This document shows, piece by piece, positions 43,745 to 50,322 of a stretch of DNA of 64,000 nucleotides. Position 1 is the first letter of the stretch; each line of letters begins with the position of its first letter. This DNA comes from Chloroflexota bacterium. Lineage in GTDB: Bacteria; Chloroflexota; Anaerolineae; J036; Brachytrichaceae. The translations under genes and the position numbers were made by a program. The stretch lies in the NCBI GenBank assembly GCA_025354985.1, contig JANXLU010000068.1:124001-188000 (forward strand), written 5' to 3'. Under the pieces are notes generated by a model, which was given only the letters and a program-made list of their open reading frames with translations, was not told where the DNA came from and searched no databases.

Positions 43745-45334
43745 TTAATTAATTAGTTTGTAAGCCTCAAGCGTAAGGAACTCATCAAACACCGGTCGTT
43801 TGGTCATGTCGCGAAAAAGGACAGAGGCGCTTCTAAATTCGGCACGCTCGCATCGTTCAGGACCCAATTCCGCCCCGAGTTTCACCAAAACATCATCCAT
43901 GATGTGATCAAACAACTCTGAAGTTAGTTTTCGACCATCGGCCAAAGGCGCCTGGTGAAATACCCACTGCCACAATTGCGCGCGACTTATCTCGGCAGTA
44001 GCAGCATCCTCCATCAAGTTATACAGTGGCACGCATCCGTTTCCTCGCAACCACGCATCCATATATTGCACGCCCACGGAAATATTGGTTCGGACGCCTG
44101 TTTCAGTGATTAACCCTTCCTGCGGCTTAAGCAAGTCTGCAGAGGTAACCGATACATCCTCGCGTTTCCGTGCAATCTGGTTCTCGGTCTTCATCGCGGC
44201 AAACTGTTCCGCAGCAATGCCAACCAGACCAGGATGTGCAACCCAAGTGCCGTCGTGCCCATCGGTAACCTCGCGCAACTTGTCTGCCCGGACCTTGGAA
44301 AGTGCCACTTCATTCGCCGAGGAGTCGCCCTTGATTGGAATCTGCGCGGCCATGCCTCCGATTGCATAGGCGCCACGACGATGACACGTTTTTATTGTGT
44401 TGAGCGCATATGCGCGCATGAAAGGCGATGTCATGGTCACCTGTGCGCGATCAGGCAAAATATATGCCTTGTATGTTGCCAGCTTCTTGATATAGCTGAA
44501 TATGTAATCCCAGCGACCGCAATTCAACCCGACAATGTGCTCGCGCAACTCGTACAAAATTTCATCTTCTTCAAAAGCGGCAAGTATCGTTTCGATCAGC
44601 GCCGTTACCGCTATCGATCCACGGGGTACGCCGATCGTATCCTCGGCAAAAACAAACACGTCGTGCCACAACCTGGCCTCCAAGTGGCTCTCCATCTTTG
44701 GGAGATAAAAATACGGCCCGCTGCCGCGCCTCACGAGCTCGGCAACATTATGGAAAAAGTATAGACCAAAATCGAAGAGGCTGCCGGATATCTGGGCGCC
44801 ATCCACTGTCATATTTTTTTCATTTAGATGCCATCCACGCGGCCGAACAATTAATGTTGCGGTGTGCTCGGCAAGTTTGTACTGTTTCCCGTCTGGATTC
44901 TCAAAACTAATCGTGCGGTTTATGGCGTCGCGTAAATTAACGTGTCCCTGAATGTTGTTGTCACGGGTGGGTGAATTGCTATCTTCAAAATCCGCCATAA
45001 AGCAGTTTGCTCCACTGTTTAAGGCATTGATAATCATCTTTCGATCAACGGGGCCGGTAATTTCCACATTTCGCCTTTTCAAGTCAGCCGGCGCACTGCG
45101 AACTGACCAATCCGCATCACGAATATGCTTGGTTTGAGGAAGAAAATCCGGCAGCTCGCCCGCGGCGATGCGGGTCTGTCGCGCCATCCGGGCCGCCAAC
45201 AAATCAAGACGACGTGCATCAAAATTTCGGTGCAACGCAGCCAGAAACGACAGAGCCTGCGGCGTGAGCACTTGATGCGTCTGATCGTTATCAGGGAATT
45301 GAGTTGCGATTCCTGTGCTGTTTGTTACTGTCAT
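43745..45334 (-). CDS. aceB: malate synthase A
   Basis: A 529-residue enzyme that condenses glyoxylate and acetyl-CoA to malate. The stretch ITGPVDRKMIINALNSGA near residue 75, then ANCFMADFEDSNSP, is characteristic of the A isoform. RPRGWHLNEKNM and FDFGLYFFHN follow. TMTSPFMRAYALNTIKTCHRRGAYA is the last conserved region before the catalytic-Asp part. ATG 45334 has AGGTGA seven bases upstream; a GTG at 45343 is an alternative. It is the last gene of the protease operon, 13 bases after the emfourin-like gene. No isocitrate lyase is in the window. Confidence 0.95.
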   Translation of the reverse strand: MTVTNSTGIATQFPDNDQTHQVLTPQALSFLAALHRNFDARRLDLLAARMARQTRIAAGELPDFLPQTKHIRDADWSVRSAPADLKRRNVEITGPVDRKMIINALNSGANCFMADFEDSNSPTRDNNIQGHVNLRDAINRTISFENPDGKQYKLAEHTATLIVRPRGWHLNEKNMTVDGAQISGSLFDFGLYFFHNVAELVRRGSGPYFYLPKMESHLEARLWHDVFVFAEDTIGVPRGSIAVTALIETILAAFEEDEILYELREHIVGLNCGRWDYIFSYIKKLATYKAYILPDRAQVTMTSPFMRAYALNTIKTCHRRGAYAIGGMAAQIPIKGDSSANEVALSKVRADKLREVTDGHDGTWVAHPGLVGIAAEQFAAMKTENQIARKREDVSVTSADLLKPQEGLITETGVRTNISVGVQYMDAWLRGNGCVPLYNLMEDAATAEISRAQLWQWVFHQAPLADGRKLTSELFDHIMDDVLVKLGAELGPERCERAEFRSASVLFRDMTKRPVFDEFLTLEAYKLIN

Positions 45335-45347
45335 GTGAGTCACCTGA

Positions 45348-45986
45348 CTAGGCTACCAAATATGTTTTCAGTAGGGTGATGAGTTCGCCGACGGGTTTTG
45401 GAATTGATCCGTCAAAGACTTCCAAATCATGGACCTTGTTGTCTACAGTTGCGACAAGCTCGTAGGCATATGTGTCGGGCCGCTGATTGCCTATGATTGA
45501 GACTGGCGCAAATGTTTCGGCCGTAATTAAGGACACCATGTCCTCCAATACCCTGGCATCCAAATTCAATTCTGTCGCGGCCGCACCGTCGTTTCCATGC
45601 TCGACATGTTTGCTTCGCACGTGACCATCGGCAAATACCGATACCTCGCGTGACGAAAAACTAATTCCGCCACTCATTCGCATGCACACGATCGCGCCAT
45701 CAGAAAGCGTTGGCTTGGCCGCGCCCCTTAAAGACTGGGAAGCAATGTTCTTGCCCAGGGAAGCAAGGGTTGAATCCAACGAAGCATTGATGCCAATTAT
45801 CGTCTGAGGCTGCAAACCGTCATGGTCGGCGTTCGACACATCAAGCTGACCGAATAGCTTGTCATTGCTTTTTGCGGGCGGCGTCCCAATTCTGTCACTT
45901 CGCCGCGCAGTAGGTTTGGTGGCGCGTGTCCTTCTCGGCGTTCCCGCGGCGTGCCCCGGTTTGGCTTTCTTATGTCGCGCTGTCAT
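45348..45986 (-). CDS. emfourin-like candidate M4 protease inhibitor
   Basis: A 212-residue protein with two parts. The first 70 residues are basic and disordered (KKAKPGHAAGTPRRTRATKP). Residues 95-210 have MRMSGGISFSS, then FADGHVRSKH, LDARVLEDMVSLITAETF, PDTYAYELVATVDNKVHDLEVFDGSIP and a final LITLLKTYL. This order (SGG, Asp, helix, PDxxxYxL, G/K-HxV, DxxxP) is what I remember of emfourin, the inhibitor of the protealysin M4 protease in Serratia. It starts inside the stop of the gene before it (ATGA), in the operon of an M4 protease. No signal peptide is visible, so an intracellular inhibitor or docking role is possible. The family call is moderate. Confidence 0.5.
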   Translation of the reverse strand: MTARHKKAKPGHAAGTPRRTRATKPTARRSDRIGTPPAKSNDKLFGQLDVSNADHDGLQPQTIIGINASLDSTLASLGKNIASQSLRGAAKPTLSDGAIVCMRMSGGISFSSREVSVFADGHVRSKHVEHGNDGAAATELNLDARVLEDMVSLITAETFAPVSIIGNQRPDTYAYELVATVDNKVHDLEVFDGSIPKPVGELITLLKTYLVA

Positions 45987-46594
45987 TCCACCCTCACGGT
46001 TTTTAACATTTCGTCAAACTGCGCATTGGCGCGGTCATATTCACTGCTTGGTGCGGAAAGCGTCACATAATAGCTTGTCTGCCTGCCAACCAGTATGACG
46101 TCTCGCGTCTGAACCACCACCGGCAGCGAAGCACTGCGCGGTTGGTCAATCGGCTGGGTCGTAAAGGCATAGCCAAGTTCCACACCCTTGGTGCCTCCGA
46201 CCGTCGTCTCACGGCTTCCCAGAAAGTGGTATCCGGTCAACTTATTGCGCTCTTCCACACGACGATCCAACAAGGTCTGGAGGGTTGGTGGGCTTGCAAT
46301 GTCCAAGTCGCGCCTAATCACTACCACGTTTGACTTGTAGGCCGAACCGGTCTCCGGGTCTTGAACTTTGAGAAGTGAGTCCGACAGCGTCGTGCCCTTC
46401 TCCCAACCAGATGGGTACGCCAGCCGAAATGTTGATTCAGGCTCTTGATACACCTCCAAACGCGCATCAACAACCCGATGGATAATAAATCCTGCAACCA
46501 ACGCGAGTGCAGACACCAACAAGACACCAACATCCTTGCGGGTGTGTCGTATGCGCCAATATTGTTGACTGGCCGTTGTTTTGACCACCGCCAT
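45983..46594 (-). CDS. single-pass membrane protein with PsbP/DUF1795-like outer domain
   Basis: A 203-residue protein. Residues 1-22 are basic, residues 23-40 (GVLLVSALALVAGFIIHR) a membrane helix, and the rest lies outside. The outer domain contains FRLAYPSGWEKGTT near residue 58, KSNVVVIRRDLD, TTVGGTKGVELGYAF and DVILVGRQTSYYVTLSAPSSEYDRAN. This sequence order resembles the PsbP/DUF1795-type folds in which a YPxxW segment and a late FDxxLxTxR helix occur (here FDEMLKTVRVE). Function unknown. It begins two bases after the PrsW-like gene and its stop overlaps the emfourin-like start. Confidence 0.7.
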   Translation of the reverse strand: MAVVKTTASQQYWRIRHTRKDVGVLLVSALALVAGFIIHRVVDARLEVYQEPESTFRLAYPSGWEKGTTLSDSLLKVQDPETGSAYKSNVVVIRRDLDIASPPTLQTLLDRRVEERNKLTGYHFLGSRETTVGGTKGVELGYAFTTQPIDQPRSASLPVVVQTRDVILVGRQTSYYVTLSAPSSEYDRANAQFDEMLKTVRVE

Positions 46595-46596
46595 CG

Positions 46597-47526
46597 TTAT
46601 GCCCTCCCAAACTGAACCGACATGCTTCGTCGCATCAGCACCAACAATAGTCCAAATGCTGCCGCCGCCAGCAGCCCGCCCAAAATCAACGACCGAAATG
46701 GTTCAGTGGTTAATCCACTCGCGCTAACCTCACTCAGCAACCACGTAAATAGTCCGTTAAGAAAGGCGCACACGATAAACCCGGTCGGAACATACCATGT
46801 TGGCCGATGCTTAAACTTCGCTTCGGCCATCACATAGCCCATCAACCCACCAAATGCGGCCTGCGCCATTGCAGTGGTAACGGTGCGAATTACGCCTGCA
46901 GTCAAATCCACCCCTCCATTGTCAATGACATATCGCAAATTCAACAGGGCCGCCAGACCCAGACCTGCTGCCGTTCCATAAACGATACCGTCCATTCGCT
47001 CGTCAAAATCCGCCGATGCATACACCGTCCGCACCGCCAAATATTGCACAAGTTGATAGACCACGCCAAGAACCAAAACGCTAGCCATCAGCGACACCCA
47101 GGTCACGTGCGCCCACTCTGAAACATGAAACGCATCTTCAATGAGACGGCGCCCCGCCACGTCATACACGACCATCGCCACTATGACCACTTGCGCAATT
47201 CTGGTCTTTGGTTCCGGTTCAACTTGATCCTCGCGATAGAACCAGATAAGCCACAATATGCTGGGCACGACGGATATCAAAATTCCGGCGATCCACATTG
47301 GTGGGCCGCTGAGCGGCCCACTGCTTAGGCCAAGCAGCGCCGCCCCTACGGCAAAAACCACGAGCCCGATAATTTGTGCCAACCCTGCGCGCCACATGCC
47401 CGCATGCGGTTTGTTCACCAGCGCGAAATGTCGCGCACAGTACACCCTTCCGCCATAGGCGTTATAAGGAGCAACCAGCGGTTCTCCACAGATGCAACAA
47501 TCGGCGTCTTGCGACATATCTAGCAT
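46597..47526 (-). CDS. PrsW-like membrane protein without catalytic residues, with N-terminal zinc-ribbon
   Basis: A 309-residue protein. Residues 10-33 form a CxxC...CxxH site (C10, C13, C30, H33). About eight membrane helices follow. The core matches the PrsW pattern (YREDQVEPEPK, then ADFDERMDGIVYGTAAGLGLAAL and GLMGYVMAEAKF). The glutamates and lysine of the EExxK motif are replaced (Y157, Q158, Q161), the Glu of the EN motif is L195 and the metal histidines are Q222 and N257. PrsW cleaves anti-sigma factors inside membranes; this copy probably does not cleave. The ATG at 47526 has AGGAG seven bases upstream. It lies 21 bases after the M4 protease gene and two before the next. Confidence 0.8.
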   Translation of the reverse strand: MLDMSQDADCCICGEPLVAPYNAYGGRVYCARHFALVNKPHAGMWRAGLAQIIGLVVFAVGAALLGLSSGPLSGPPMWIAGILISVVPSILWLIWFYREDQVEPEPKTRIAQVVIVAMVVYDVAGRRLIEDAFHVSEWAHVTWVSLMASVLVLGVVYQLVQYLAVRTVYASADFDERMDGIVYGTAAGLGLAALLNLRYVIDNGGVDLTAGVIRTVTTAMAQAAFGGLMGYVMAEAKFKHRPTWYVPTGFIVCAFLNGLFTWLLSEVSASGLTTEPFRSLILGGLLAAAAFGLLLVLMRRSMSVQFGRA

Positions 47527-47547: not shown

Positions 47548-50169
47548 TTACCTGCTTCGGCGGAGCGTGGCATTAACCAGGAACGGGTTGTTTGCGTTTG
47601 AAGGAAGCGTTACTCCATTGTCTGCGATTACGGGACGGTAATTTCGTGCAACAATGATCACACTGTACTGCTTGTTTCTGGCAATCGCACTCTCAGTTTG
47701 AAATTGACCGTTGCTATCAGTGACCGCTGTTGTCAGAATATCCTGCTCATTTACGTTGTCCTGCGCAGCCACCGCGCTGGCACTGAGACCCGCACGCAGA
47801 ATAATGACCTGCGCACCTGGCACCCCGCGTCCGGTATCCGCATCAACCAGCTTGCCACCCAAATAGACCACGTCGTTGGCCCGTGGTTGAGGAGCGGCGG
47901 GTGCCGTGCCTGTTGTGCACGCAATAATGCCCACGTCATCAACGAAGAAGCTGGAAGTATTTTGTCTGGGGTTCTCCGCAGTGAATAACAATCGGATCGA
48001 ATGGCCGGCTAGCTGGCTTATGTCAAATTGCTGTTGTGTCCAAGCATCATCTGCATCATCACTCGTTAACTGTTCGATCACCGCCCTACCCGTGCTTTGA
48101 GGATTAGCTATCTGGGTCGCAAATCGCGCCGGGCTGGTGAAGAACCCCAGTACGCCGCCGGTTTCCTTGTGGATCAGCCGAAAGTATCGCAAACTGACCG
48201 TTGTCGCGTTTGCCGGAATTGCGATATCCTGATAAATGGCCTGAAGCGGTTCCTGGTCCTGGCCACCAAGCCAGGCACTACCCGTACCCGTGTGCGGCAG
48301 CTCGGATTCGATCAAGCCGGTATTGCCTTTTGTATTCTGCTTCCATGTATCTTGACTTTCAAATCCACCGTTCTTTACGACGTTGACGCACCCCGCAGGC
48401 AGTGTCTCAGGCGCCGATGGTTGTGCCGGCGTTTGCGTCGTCGGTTGCGTTGTGGGAGCAGCCGGCCCTACACTGCTTGCACCAGCTCCTATGCCCACCT
48501 GTGACCAAGCCGTTCGTACCACAGTCGCGCCGTCTGCTCCATATAGTTCCTGGGCGCTCCGTATAGTTGCATTGGCAGCGTCCGCAAAATTGCTACGCGG
48601 AGTCAAATAGTTAGTCAGCGCGCGATACCAAATTTGCGCGAGTTTGTCCTTTCCAAGCGATTGACCCACGTAGTAGGCCGCGTGGTTTGGCACGCCGCTA
48701 TTGATATGTACACCGCCGTTATCCGCCCGGCGGCTTATTTCCAAATTGGCATACTCGTTCATCGTCGCCGGCTGCCCAACGCCTGCCAGAGGATTTCGGG
48801 GGTTGTAATAGCCACCGGCATTTGGATCACTCATGCTCCTCAAATAGGGCACGGGAAATGGCGGCGACTTCACTGTGCCCCGGCCAATGTCCCAGTTTGC
48901 ACCGCTAATTAGAACGCCAAAGACATCAGCATAGCTTTCGTTTAGCGCGCCACTTTGTGACTCATATACAAGGTTGGCCGTGCTTTCGACCACACCGTGG
49001 GTAAACTCATGCCCGATGACATCCAAACCATACGCCAGGGGACGAAACATCCGGCCTCCGTCGCCAAAGACCATTTGCTTCGCCTCGCCAATCCACGCCG
49101 CATTTTCCTGCTCCTGCGGGTCGCTTCCAAAATGCACCGTGCTAATAAGTGGCATACCGCGACCGTCCAGGCTGTCTCGCTTGAAATTCGTCGAATAAAA
49201 GTCATAGACCTTGCCGGCACCATCGTGTGCCGCCTGTCCGATTGGATCGGCTGTCCGGTTGCCTTCATCCGCCAGAAGCCTGCCTGGCAAATCTTCGGTT
49301 GCCTGCGCAGTAAATGTCTGGCGGCGCCGCAAAATTTCGTTCGCATCAATTGCATGGGTCACCACGGGGCGGCGTGCGTTTACAAAAAACGTCCACTGTC
49401 CCAGCGGCGTGCGCGTGAGCATTTTCACCATCCACACCAGCGTTGGATGGTCATTCACGTCCACATACACCATGAGCTGAGTTCGATTGCCGAGAACCGA
49501 TGGCAATGCAGTTGCGGCTTCAGCCCCGTCCAATTGGCGTTCGCGCAGATTACGCAACGCCAAATCTTCGGCTTCAGCCCGATCAACGGTTGGTTCTATG
49601 TTCAAAACTAGCGAGGGCACATACTGCCCGTTGACCGCGAGCACGTGATTGCTGGCGTCAACATGGACGAACAACTGCCGGCCATAAACTGGCAAACCCT
49701 GAAATATTTGTCCAAACCTTGCGTGTTGGAAACCATCCAATGTGTCCGGCGCCAGTTCCAATAGTTGCAAATCTTTCTGTGCCGAGCCCAGCATGAACAG
49801 GCCCCGGTTTTCGTCCAGGAACCCGCGCGCCAGAGCTTCGGGGTTGCCGCGCTCAATTGCCGGGGCAACATACGGAAGCGGCGTCACATGATCCGAAGAT
49901 TCAAGCCAGGTCACCGTACCAAAACTGTCACTTCGTGCAGCCAATAACGGTTGCGTTGTCATTGATTGCAGCCGCTTCAAGGCCACTGCTGGAGAGTCCT
50001 GATGAAGCGCTATTTCGCCTGTCACCTGATTGGTCGCGGTGCGTATTTGTTCGGCGTGCGGCGCAACAAAAAAGGCCGATGCTGCCAATGAAATCGTAGC
50101 AAGGATCGCGCCAATAGTCGCAATCCGCCTCGGTTTGGGATGCTGCTGTTTCAATATCAACTGCGTCAT
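47548..50169 (-). CDS. secreted M4 (thermolysin-like) zinc protease with C-terminal binding and regulatory domains
   Basis: An 873-residue exported protease. A signal-like stretch (residues 14-40, ATIGAILATISLAASAFFV) is followed by a propeptide (to about residue 290) of the FTP/PepSY type (GLPVYGRQLFVHVD). The catalytic domain has GHEFTH (about 387) and ESQSGALNESYADVFG, the two M4 zinc motifs. NNGGVHINSGVPNHAAY fits the family. After a Pro/Thr linker come a beta-sandwich-like domain (VVKNGGFESQDTW) and a carboxypeptidase-regulatory-like domain (LGGKLVDADTGRGVPGAQVI). The ATG at 50169 lies just after AGGAGG. It heads the operon with the pseudo-PrsW and emfourin-like genes. Confidence 0.92.
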   Translation of the reverse strand: MTQLILKQQHPKPRRIATIGAILATISLAASAFFVAPHAEQIRTATNQVTGEIALHQDSPAVALKRLQSMTTQPLLAARSDSFGTVTWLESSDHVTPLPYVAPAIERGNPEALARGFLDENRGLFMLGSAQKDLQLLELAPDTLDGFQHARFGQIFQGLPVYGRQLFVHVDASNHVLAVNGQYVPSLVLNIEPTVDRAEAEDLALRNLRERQLDGAEAATALPSVLGNRTQLMVYVDVNDHPTLVWMVKMLTRTPLGQWTFFVNARRPVVTHAIDANEILRRRQTFTAQATEDLPGRLLADEGNRTADPIGQAAHDGAGKVYDFYSTNFKRDSLDGRGMPLISTVHFGSDPQEQENAAWIGEAKQMVFGDGGRMFRPLAYGLDVIGHEFTHGVVESTANLVYESQSGALNESYADVFGVLISGANWDIGRGTVKSPPFPVPYLRSMSDPNAGGYYNPRNPLAGVGQPATMNEYANLEISRRADNGGVHINSGVPNHAAYYVGQSLGKDKLAQIWYRALTNYLTPRSNFADAANATIRSAQELYGADGATVVRTAWSQVGIGAGASSVGPAAPTTQPTTQTPAQPSAPETLPAGCVNVVKNGGFESQDTWKQNTKGNTGLIESELPHTGTGSAWLGGQDQEPLQAIYQDIAIPANATTVSLRYFRLIHKETGGVLGFFTSPARFATQIANPQSTGRAVIEQLTSDDADDAWTQQQFDISQLAGHSIRLLFTAENPRQNTSSFFVDDVGIIACTTGTAPAAPQPRANDVVYLGGKLVDADTGRGVPGAQVIILRAGLSASAVAAQDNVNEQDILTTAVTDSNGQFQTESAIARNKQYSVIIVARNYRPVIADNGVTLPSNANNPFLVNATLRRSR

Positions 50170-50322
50170 GTTCCTCCTGAGAACAACCAAAAGTTGCATG
50201 TAACAACGTTGAGTTTACGTTGTACCAGACACACATGCAACTGAACGCGTAAGCATGAATACTTGAGCGTCCAAATCCGACGTGCCAAGTGTAACGGACT
50301 TTTCGAAAGGTGAGTTACCAAA

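Follow-up and report, generated by a model that had tools for sequence, protein, structure and literature searches.

The locus described here raises the question of what a membrane protein may do after it has kept the framework of an intramembrane protease and lost every residue expected to cut. The window, by which we mean the whole 64,000-nucleotide stretch of Chloroflexota DNA that was analysed, carries at 46597..47526 on the minus strand an ORF for a 309 aa protein with eight predicted long helices, assigned by ORF, profile, alignment and model as a PrsW-family membrane pseudoprotease. PrsW is the site-1 protease for RsiW in B. subtilis and is represented by PF13367. A sequence-only reading of the window had placed this ORF in the PrsW family, and both the ORF itself and the PF13367 match (E 2.4e-13, 50.5 bits at a cut-off of 23.5) bear this out, making the protein PrsW by descent. 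Its score with NF033739, the NCBIfam model of the true PrsW equivalog, is 82.9 bits, below the cut-off of 225. The same genome encodes a second PrsW (C80) which has all the canonical residues and scores 151 bits versus 53 for the window gene. A search of the genome contigs returned only three distant relatives, all with canonical residues.

In B. subtilis PrsW the motifs are described as E75E76xxK79, F110xxxE114, H138 and H175xxxD/N179, and the E75A/E76A and H175A substitutions show functional importance (PMC12943098); a predicted active site is also given in PMC4602095. In alignments of up to 129 rows the canonical residues E, E, K, E, H and H correspond to Y157, Q158, Q161, L195, Q222 and N257 of the window protein. 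Y157-Q158-x-x-Q161 (47044..47058, minus strand, like all features below) occupies the E-E-x-x-K columns, L195 (46942..46944) the place of the active-site glutamate of FxxxE, Q222 (46861..46863) that of the third-motif histidine and N257 (46756..46758) that of the fourth-motif histidine of HxxxN/D, H175 in B. subtilis PrsW. EExxK is thus absent, the second motif reads L191-x3-L195, the third Q222 and the fourth N257-x3-T261, so that none of the motifs of an active PrsW protease is present. The distance from the EExxK place to the FDxxxDG motif is the same, free of gaps, in the window protein and in the canonical paralogue from the same genome (L055). This mapping is based on the large alignments; a four-row alignment, in which the EExxK region is gap-shifted, served structure prediction only. 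All six residues occur in 14 of 14 canonical rows, which are a sample of loci and are defined by keeping all six, and none occurs in the window protein. The six positions given in the sequence-only reading all proved exact; its statement that all predicted catalytic residues are gone while the PrsW framework remains holds in the 129-row alignment.

Relatives were sought in 99 and then in 396 genomes of the window's class; 48 of the 99 match at E ≤ 1e-3, canonical PrsW included, and 113 of the 396 at E ≤ 1e-15. After hits shorter than 200 aa and identical copies had been dropped, 160 hits gave a main alignment of 115 rows besides the window, and 13 rows added later brought it to 129; not included are twelve matches of low score or partial length and many low-scoring ones of canonical type. 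Fourteen of the aligned rows keep all six residues and 115 do not, the latter comprising 113 distinct proteins and two duplicates. The two kinds of rows split at one branch (95/78) of a 126-row tree, from which two duplicates and one truncated row were omitted. E195 is found in none of the 115 non-canonical rows, and position 257 has asparagine in 83 and histidine in five; of the 114 rows in which this position is filled, 109 lack the histidine. The tree requires one change for E195 and four for H257, as against ten each for E157 and E158, eleven for K161 and fourteen for H222. Hence E195 and most of H257 were lost early, and EExxK and H222 changed many times. As position 195 separates the two groups by a single change, the loss in the window protein is more than chance. 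Judged from the alignment, it is not special to this gene: it belongs to a class-wide clade in which EExxK was eroded about ten times after the early losses.

Two ways in which the apparent loss could mislead were looked for. The expected residues could lie elsewhere in the protein, and no conserved substitute was found in the non-canonical clade: no histidine is conserved in at least 80% of its members, and acidic residues reach at least 80% only in the loops 100-105 and 173-179 (residues 40-299). Homologues could also keep the residues. The window groups with G002 of its own genus in a clade of 18 rows, 15 of which keep none of the six, while the other three (L011, L076 and L079) keep E158 and K161 only. 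Thirty rows of the whole alignment keep none; they represent 29 distinct proteins (L047 and L165 are duplicates), including the truncated L045_4540, which has no residue at two of the six positions. The death of the site in the window protein is therefore well supported as the loss of all six residues, and these residues suggest that activity was lost with them. Two pseudoproteases, L127 2924-5029(+) and L101 1312-3552(-), have long N-terminal extensions, the latter with a weak TPR match.

The gene is nevertheless maintained. In four genomes of the window's family, whose pseudoproteases also keep none of the six residues, pseudoprotease dN/dS is 0.060-0.100 in six of six pairs; the values are those of these relatives, the closest relative of the window gene being 54% identical. 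Homologues with the same losses are thus under purifying selection, which is the check that the sequence-only reading had proposed. In the same genomes dN/dS is 0.070-0.103 for the adjoining M4 protease gene, 0.074-0.227 for the gene of a PsbP-like protein and 0.220-0.318 (three pairs) for an emfourin-like gene. Constraint is lifted at the places once held by EExxK: entropy in the clade is 2.42, 2.21 and 2.30 bits at 157, 158 and 161 versus a core mean of 1.72, and in the group with M4 partners it is 1.45, 1.93 and 2.15 bits versus 0.83, while canonical PrsW has 0.00 at all six positions versus 1.88 in the core, its rows having been selected by the presence of these residues. Two other residues, W138 and R166, each occur in 112 of 113 clade members versus 2 and 4 of 14 canonical proteins, respectively. 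Having given up its original function, the pseudoprotease appears to have acquired a new one.

The neighbouring genes point to what this function may be. On the minus strand of the window the pseudoprotease gene is preceded by the gene of a secreted M4 (thermolysin-type) metalloprotease (47548..50199, 883 aa) with an FTP propeptide motif and intact HEFTH and GALNE, and is followed by genes of a PsbP/DcrB-like protein with one N-terminal TM helix (45983..46594, 203 aa), which starts right after the pseudoprotease stop, and of an emfourin-like protein of the M4 protease inhibitor family (45348..45986, 212 aa). The spacing is about 20 bases, then 2 bases, then a 4-base overlap between the last two. 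The M4 protein ends in a CarboxypepD_reg-like C-terminal domain (CTD, 47548..47904), which is common to partner proteins across the clade. A further ORF, 43745-45343(-), which resembles a malate synthase gene, begins a few bases past the end of the emfourin-like gene, so that the operon may run on or the start may be misplaced.

A PsbP-like partner accompanies 111 of the 115 non-canonical rows, being encoded by an adjacent gene in 83 and fused to the C-terminus of the pseudoprotease in 28; the remaining four lie at contig ends with 1 to 177 bases left downstream. A CTD protein, with a CTD of about 110 residues, is encoded nearby in 95 of the 115 rows, and 16 of the 20 rows without it have too little DNA on one side. 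The other four (L132, L172, L175 and L176) have long flanks, a pseudoprotease and a PsbP-like gene, yet no CTD protein. Neither gene was found at the 14 canonical loci, seven of which have only 1.4-2.5 kb per side. Among the 99 relatives the PsbP-like gene occurs in 35 of the 37 genomes that have a pseudoprotease (E ≤ 1e-13) and in none of the 62 that do not; a CTD is found in 35 and 5 of these genomes, respectively, two of the five being at contig ends. Shared ancestry of the genomes is disregarded in these counts. A single PsbP-like gene and a single clear CTD copy occur in the window's genome (the next best CTD match has E 0.318). Therefore, the set is a dedicated one, and a general sorting system acting through a common CTD is ruled out by the single clear copy. 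We infer a partnership between the clade and this gene set from their genomic linkage, which emerged from this analysis. In three loci (L037, L039 and L043) a short CTD protein lies between two tandem pseudoproteases, which may form a hetero-oligomer: the smaller, of about 295 aa, has its PsbP-like protein encoded separately, and the larger, of about 490 aa, carries PsbP in the same chain.

The CTD is attached to different proteins. Sixty-four of the 101 distinct CTD proteins are trypsin-like, 18 are of the M4 type and about 19, short proteins or cut ORFs, are neither. Catalytic sites are intact in 61 of the 64 trypsin-like proteins (H-D-S) and in 18 of 18 M4 proteins (HEFTH and GALNE); the altered triads are QDS in L067 9133-11424(+) and HDT in L173 and L174. 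All rows of the window's own 18-row clade have an M4 partner, except one whose contig ends. Emfourin-like genes are found at 17 of 17 M4-type loci (16 by rule, the 17th being L071) and at none of the 78 loci with another CTD protein. PF20242 (emfourin) matches 13 of 14 emfourin-like members at E ≤ 0.1, with a best value of 2.2e-7; the window's own gene matches it weakly (14.2 bits at a cut-off of 27, E 0.059). These counts suggest a constant platform with a protease of variable class and an inhibitor that comes only with the M4 form. Three CTD serine proteases (L158, L159 and L161) occur without a pseudoprotease and have a glycine-rich, repeat-bearing ORF just upstream; no Pfam match was found in the two of these ORFs examined.

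The set also recurs outside the window's class. Searching 301 genomes of the phylum with the PsbP-like profile gave 20 with matches, and 12 of these belong to a single family outside the window's class. All 12 loci of this family, which are not part of the main counts, have a non-canonical PrsW with a zinc motif and a PsbP-like gene; a CTD protein is present at 11, an emfourin-like gene at 11, and none of the six residues is kept at 11. PF13367 is matched by 51 of 51 non-canonical clade members scanned, and it is very likely that the PrsW protease label that follows from such profile matches is wrong for the whole clade, in the window's class and in this one family beyond it.

Hydropathy, positive-inside charge counts and the even number of helices predict both termini of the pseudoprotease in the cytosol; in one natural PrsW-PsbP fusion a further helix would place the PsbP-like domain outside. 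An AlphaFold2 model of the window protein built from four sequences has eight long helices and low confidence (pLDDT 61.4). In a VIA-align comparison with this low-confidence model APH-1 (5a63_C) came first (Z 16.7, rmsd 4.2, 213 aligned), followed by 7tm3_6 (Z 15.0) and a 9c7u subunit (Z 13.7) of the multipass translocon and BOS complex, with the SpdC-SagB entry 6u0o (Z 8.3) and Rce1 (4cad_C, Z 6.8) lower. Chain 6 of 7tm3 is presumably TMEM147. The model thus suggests a transmembrane fold of the APH-1/CAAX superfamily. Foldseek found nothing for the window model at E ≤ 0.001, and searching the PDB with a sequence profile built from 51 clade members yielded neither APH-1 nor Rce1 chains. A control model of canonical PrsW produced a similar match list, with APH-1 at Z 18.0 against 16.7 for the window model; the likeness therefore belongs to the PrsW fold as a whole and is not a consequence of activity loss. 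A special kinship of the clade to APH-1 is unsupported, the control scoring at least as high.

Since the cutting residues are lost, selection keeps the gene, and a secreted partner, usually an active protease, is encoded next door, the clade protein probably holds or controls its partner instead of cutting. We consider it probable, at roughly 60%, that a dead PrsW-fold protein now serves one exported protease as its scaffold or regulator in the membrane. The dead fold would keep a membrane-embedded binding surface and form a membrane complex with the one-helix PsbP-like protein. This complex would dock the secreted protease, likely via the CarboxypepD_reg-like CTD, and would control, at the cell surface, where it is placed, how it matures or how active it is; a zinc site predicted to face the cytosol may link the complex to something inside, and the emfourin-like protein would protect the cell from the M4 protease. 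The scaffold or regulator reading draws on residue loss, constraint elsewhere in the protein, linkage, intact partner proteases, emfourin-like genes at M4 loci, recurrence outside the class and the APH-1-like fold. Counted against it are the four long-flanked loci without a CTD protein, the CTD in five genomes without a pseudoprotease, the roughly one fifth of CTD proteins (about 19 of 101) that have no protease domain, the weak window model and the generality of the fold likeness to PrsW. More tentatively, we envisage a surface-protease holder in which a constant pseudoprotease and PsbP platform accepts serine proteases, M4 proteases or non-proteases that plug in via one CTD; it would be a prokaryotic counterpart of APH-1/TMEM147 within the same fold superfamily and a functional match of iRhom-ADAM17.

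The N-terminus of the pseudoprotease allows a different reading. Residues 10-33 (47428..47499) form a CxxC-x16-CxxH zinc-site motif, predicted to be cytosolic, and all four putative ligands, C10-x2-C13-x16-C30-x2-H33, are present. The complex may accordingly detect an outside signal, or the condition of the surface protease, and relay it to the cytosol via the zinc domain, without anchoring or placing the protease. A role as signalling peptidases was proposed in 2012 for PrsW domains joined to Zn-ribbon, FHA, PilZ and cNMP domains (PMC3482391). However, all four ligands occur in only 43 of 113 clade members, and a four-genome lineage (L005, L006, L007 and L009) has C13T, C30S and H33A with the rest of the N-terminal domain kept, while the PsbP and CTD partners persist. 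The motif is thus not essential to the clade, and we regard signalling of this kind as unlikely. The metal-binding N-terminal domain proposed in the sequence-only reading stands for the window protein as a predicted site; it is like one half of a LIM domain, the one with the second zinc site, and does not extend to the clade as a whole. The LIM profile matches in relatives alone, at 15.6 bits, which is below its cut-off. The N-termini of the four-genome lineage represent a second dead site in the same protein.

Rather more doubtful is the idea of an antagonistic effector: the M4 protein would be exported with PrsW-like help, and the emfourin-like protein would confer immunity. For polymorphic toxins, export that depends on PrsW has been proposed (PMC3482391), and an effector/immunity pair was suggested for emfourin with its M4 protease (PMC9505478); that emfourin-like genes accompany only the M4 form also favours the idea. 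However, the window M4 protein has its own N-terminal hydrophobic segment, most loci encode a serine protease or a non-protease without an emfourin-like gene, and the CTD is the constant part of the partner and not a variable tip.

It is improbable that the protein still cleaves with a rearranged site. The wider clade keeps E158 in 55, K161 in 50 and H222 in 31 of 115 rows, and activity may remain in some members, as up to four of the six residues are kept in some and H257 in five. Against this, E195 is gone throughout, H257 almost so, no histidine or membrane-embedded acid is widely conserved in its stead, and no more than two of the six are kept within the window's 18-row group. A gene decaying for want of a function would explain the loss of all active-site residues, and it is practically discounted by dN/dS of 0.06-0.10 in relatives, the new near-invariant residues and a gene set conserved in and beyond the class.

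On the scaffold or regulator reading, the clade would show in simple bacterial form how an intramembrane protease becomes a scaffold, with residue losses that can be ordered on a tree and a protease partner that is defined and swappable. It would open to testing the way in which such proteins acquire the handling of other proteases, for which iRhoms and APH-1 have been the subjects of study. In the literature searched, outside which most subscription journals lie, no paper joining PrsW with "pseudoprotease" was found; searches for PrsW with the phylum and class names gave no mention of PrsW among the matches listed, nor was there a title on a non-canonical clade among those listed. Pseudoenzymes of intramembrane proteases are already known, while no description of this clade or of its protease partnership was found in the literature searched.

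Compared with known systems, PrsW itself shares the fold and the framework motifs with the clade, whereas the window protein differs from it in the six lost residues, in the linkage to a secreted protease and in the sub-cut-off NCBIfam score. Emfourin is an inhibitor of M4 proteases encoded in one operon with protealysin (PMC9505478). The window likewise has M4 protease and inhibitor genes together, but the pseudoprotease and PsbP-like genes stand between them and the emfourin match is weak. The conversion of the iRhom type put forward in the sequence-only reading is supported, and the analogy is better than first thought, because a gene for an active secreted protease adjoins. iRhom2 is reported to control ADAM17 (PMC11248996), so that there too an inactive intramembrane protease handles an active metalloprotease; unlike the clade, that system is human, has a rhomboid fold and has a partner from another sequence family.

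APH-1 and the SpdC scaffold are nearer parallels than iRhom, as they lie within the PrsW fold superfamily. SpdC of Staphylococcus aureus scaffolds and orients SagB (PMC10581084; PMC12272431), and hence a CAAX-protease-like membrane protein also handles an extracytoplasmic hydrolase; this hydrolase is a glucosaminidase, however, and the available parts of these reports describe no PsbP-like partner or common docking domain for SpdC-SagB. In APH-1 and TMEM147 a PrsW/CAAX-superfamily fold serves as a scaffold beside an extracytoplasmic peptidase-like subunit, much as proposed for the clade. Nicastrin and nicalin are these peptidase-like subunits, and NOMO carries CarboxypepD_reg-like domains. TMEM147 is built like APH-1, and its pairing with nicalin parallels that of APH-1 with nicastrin (PMC7505659). 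APH-1 has QExxR (PMC6588880), which may be set against the QExxK common in the wider clade. The partner of the clade is an active protease, unlike that of APH-1 or TMEM147, and canonical PrsW is equally similar to these proteins, so no special kinship follows from the likeness.
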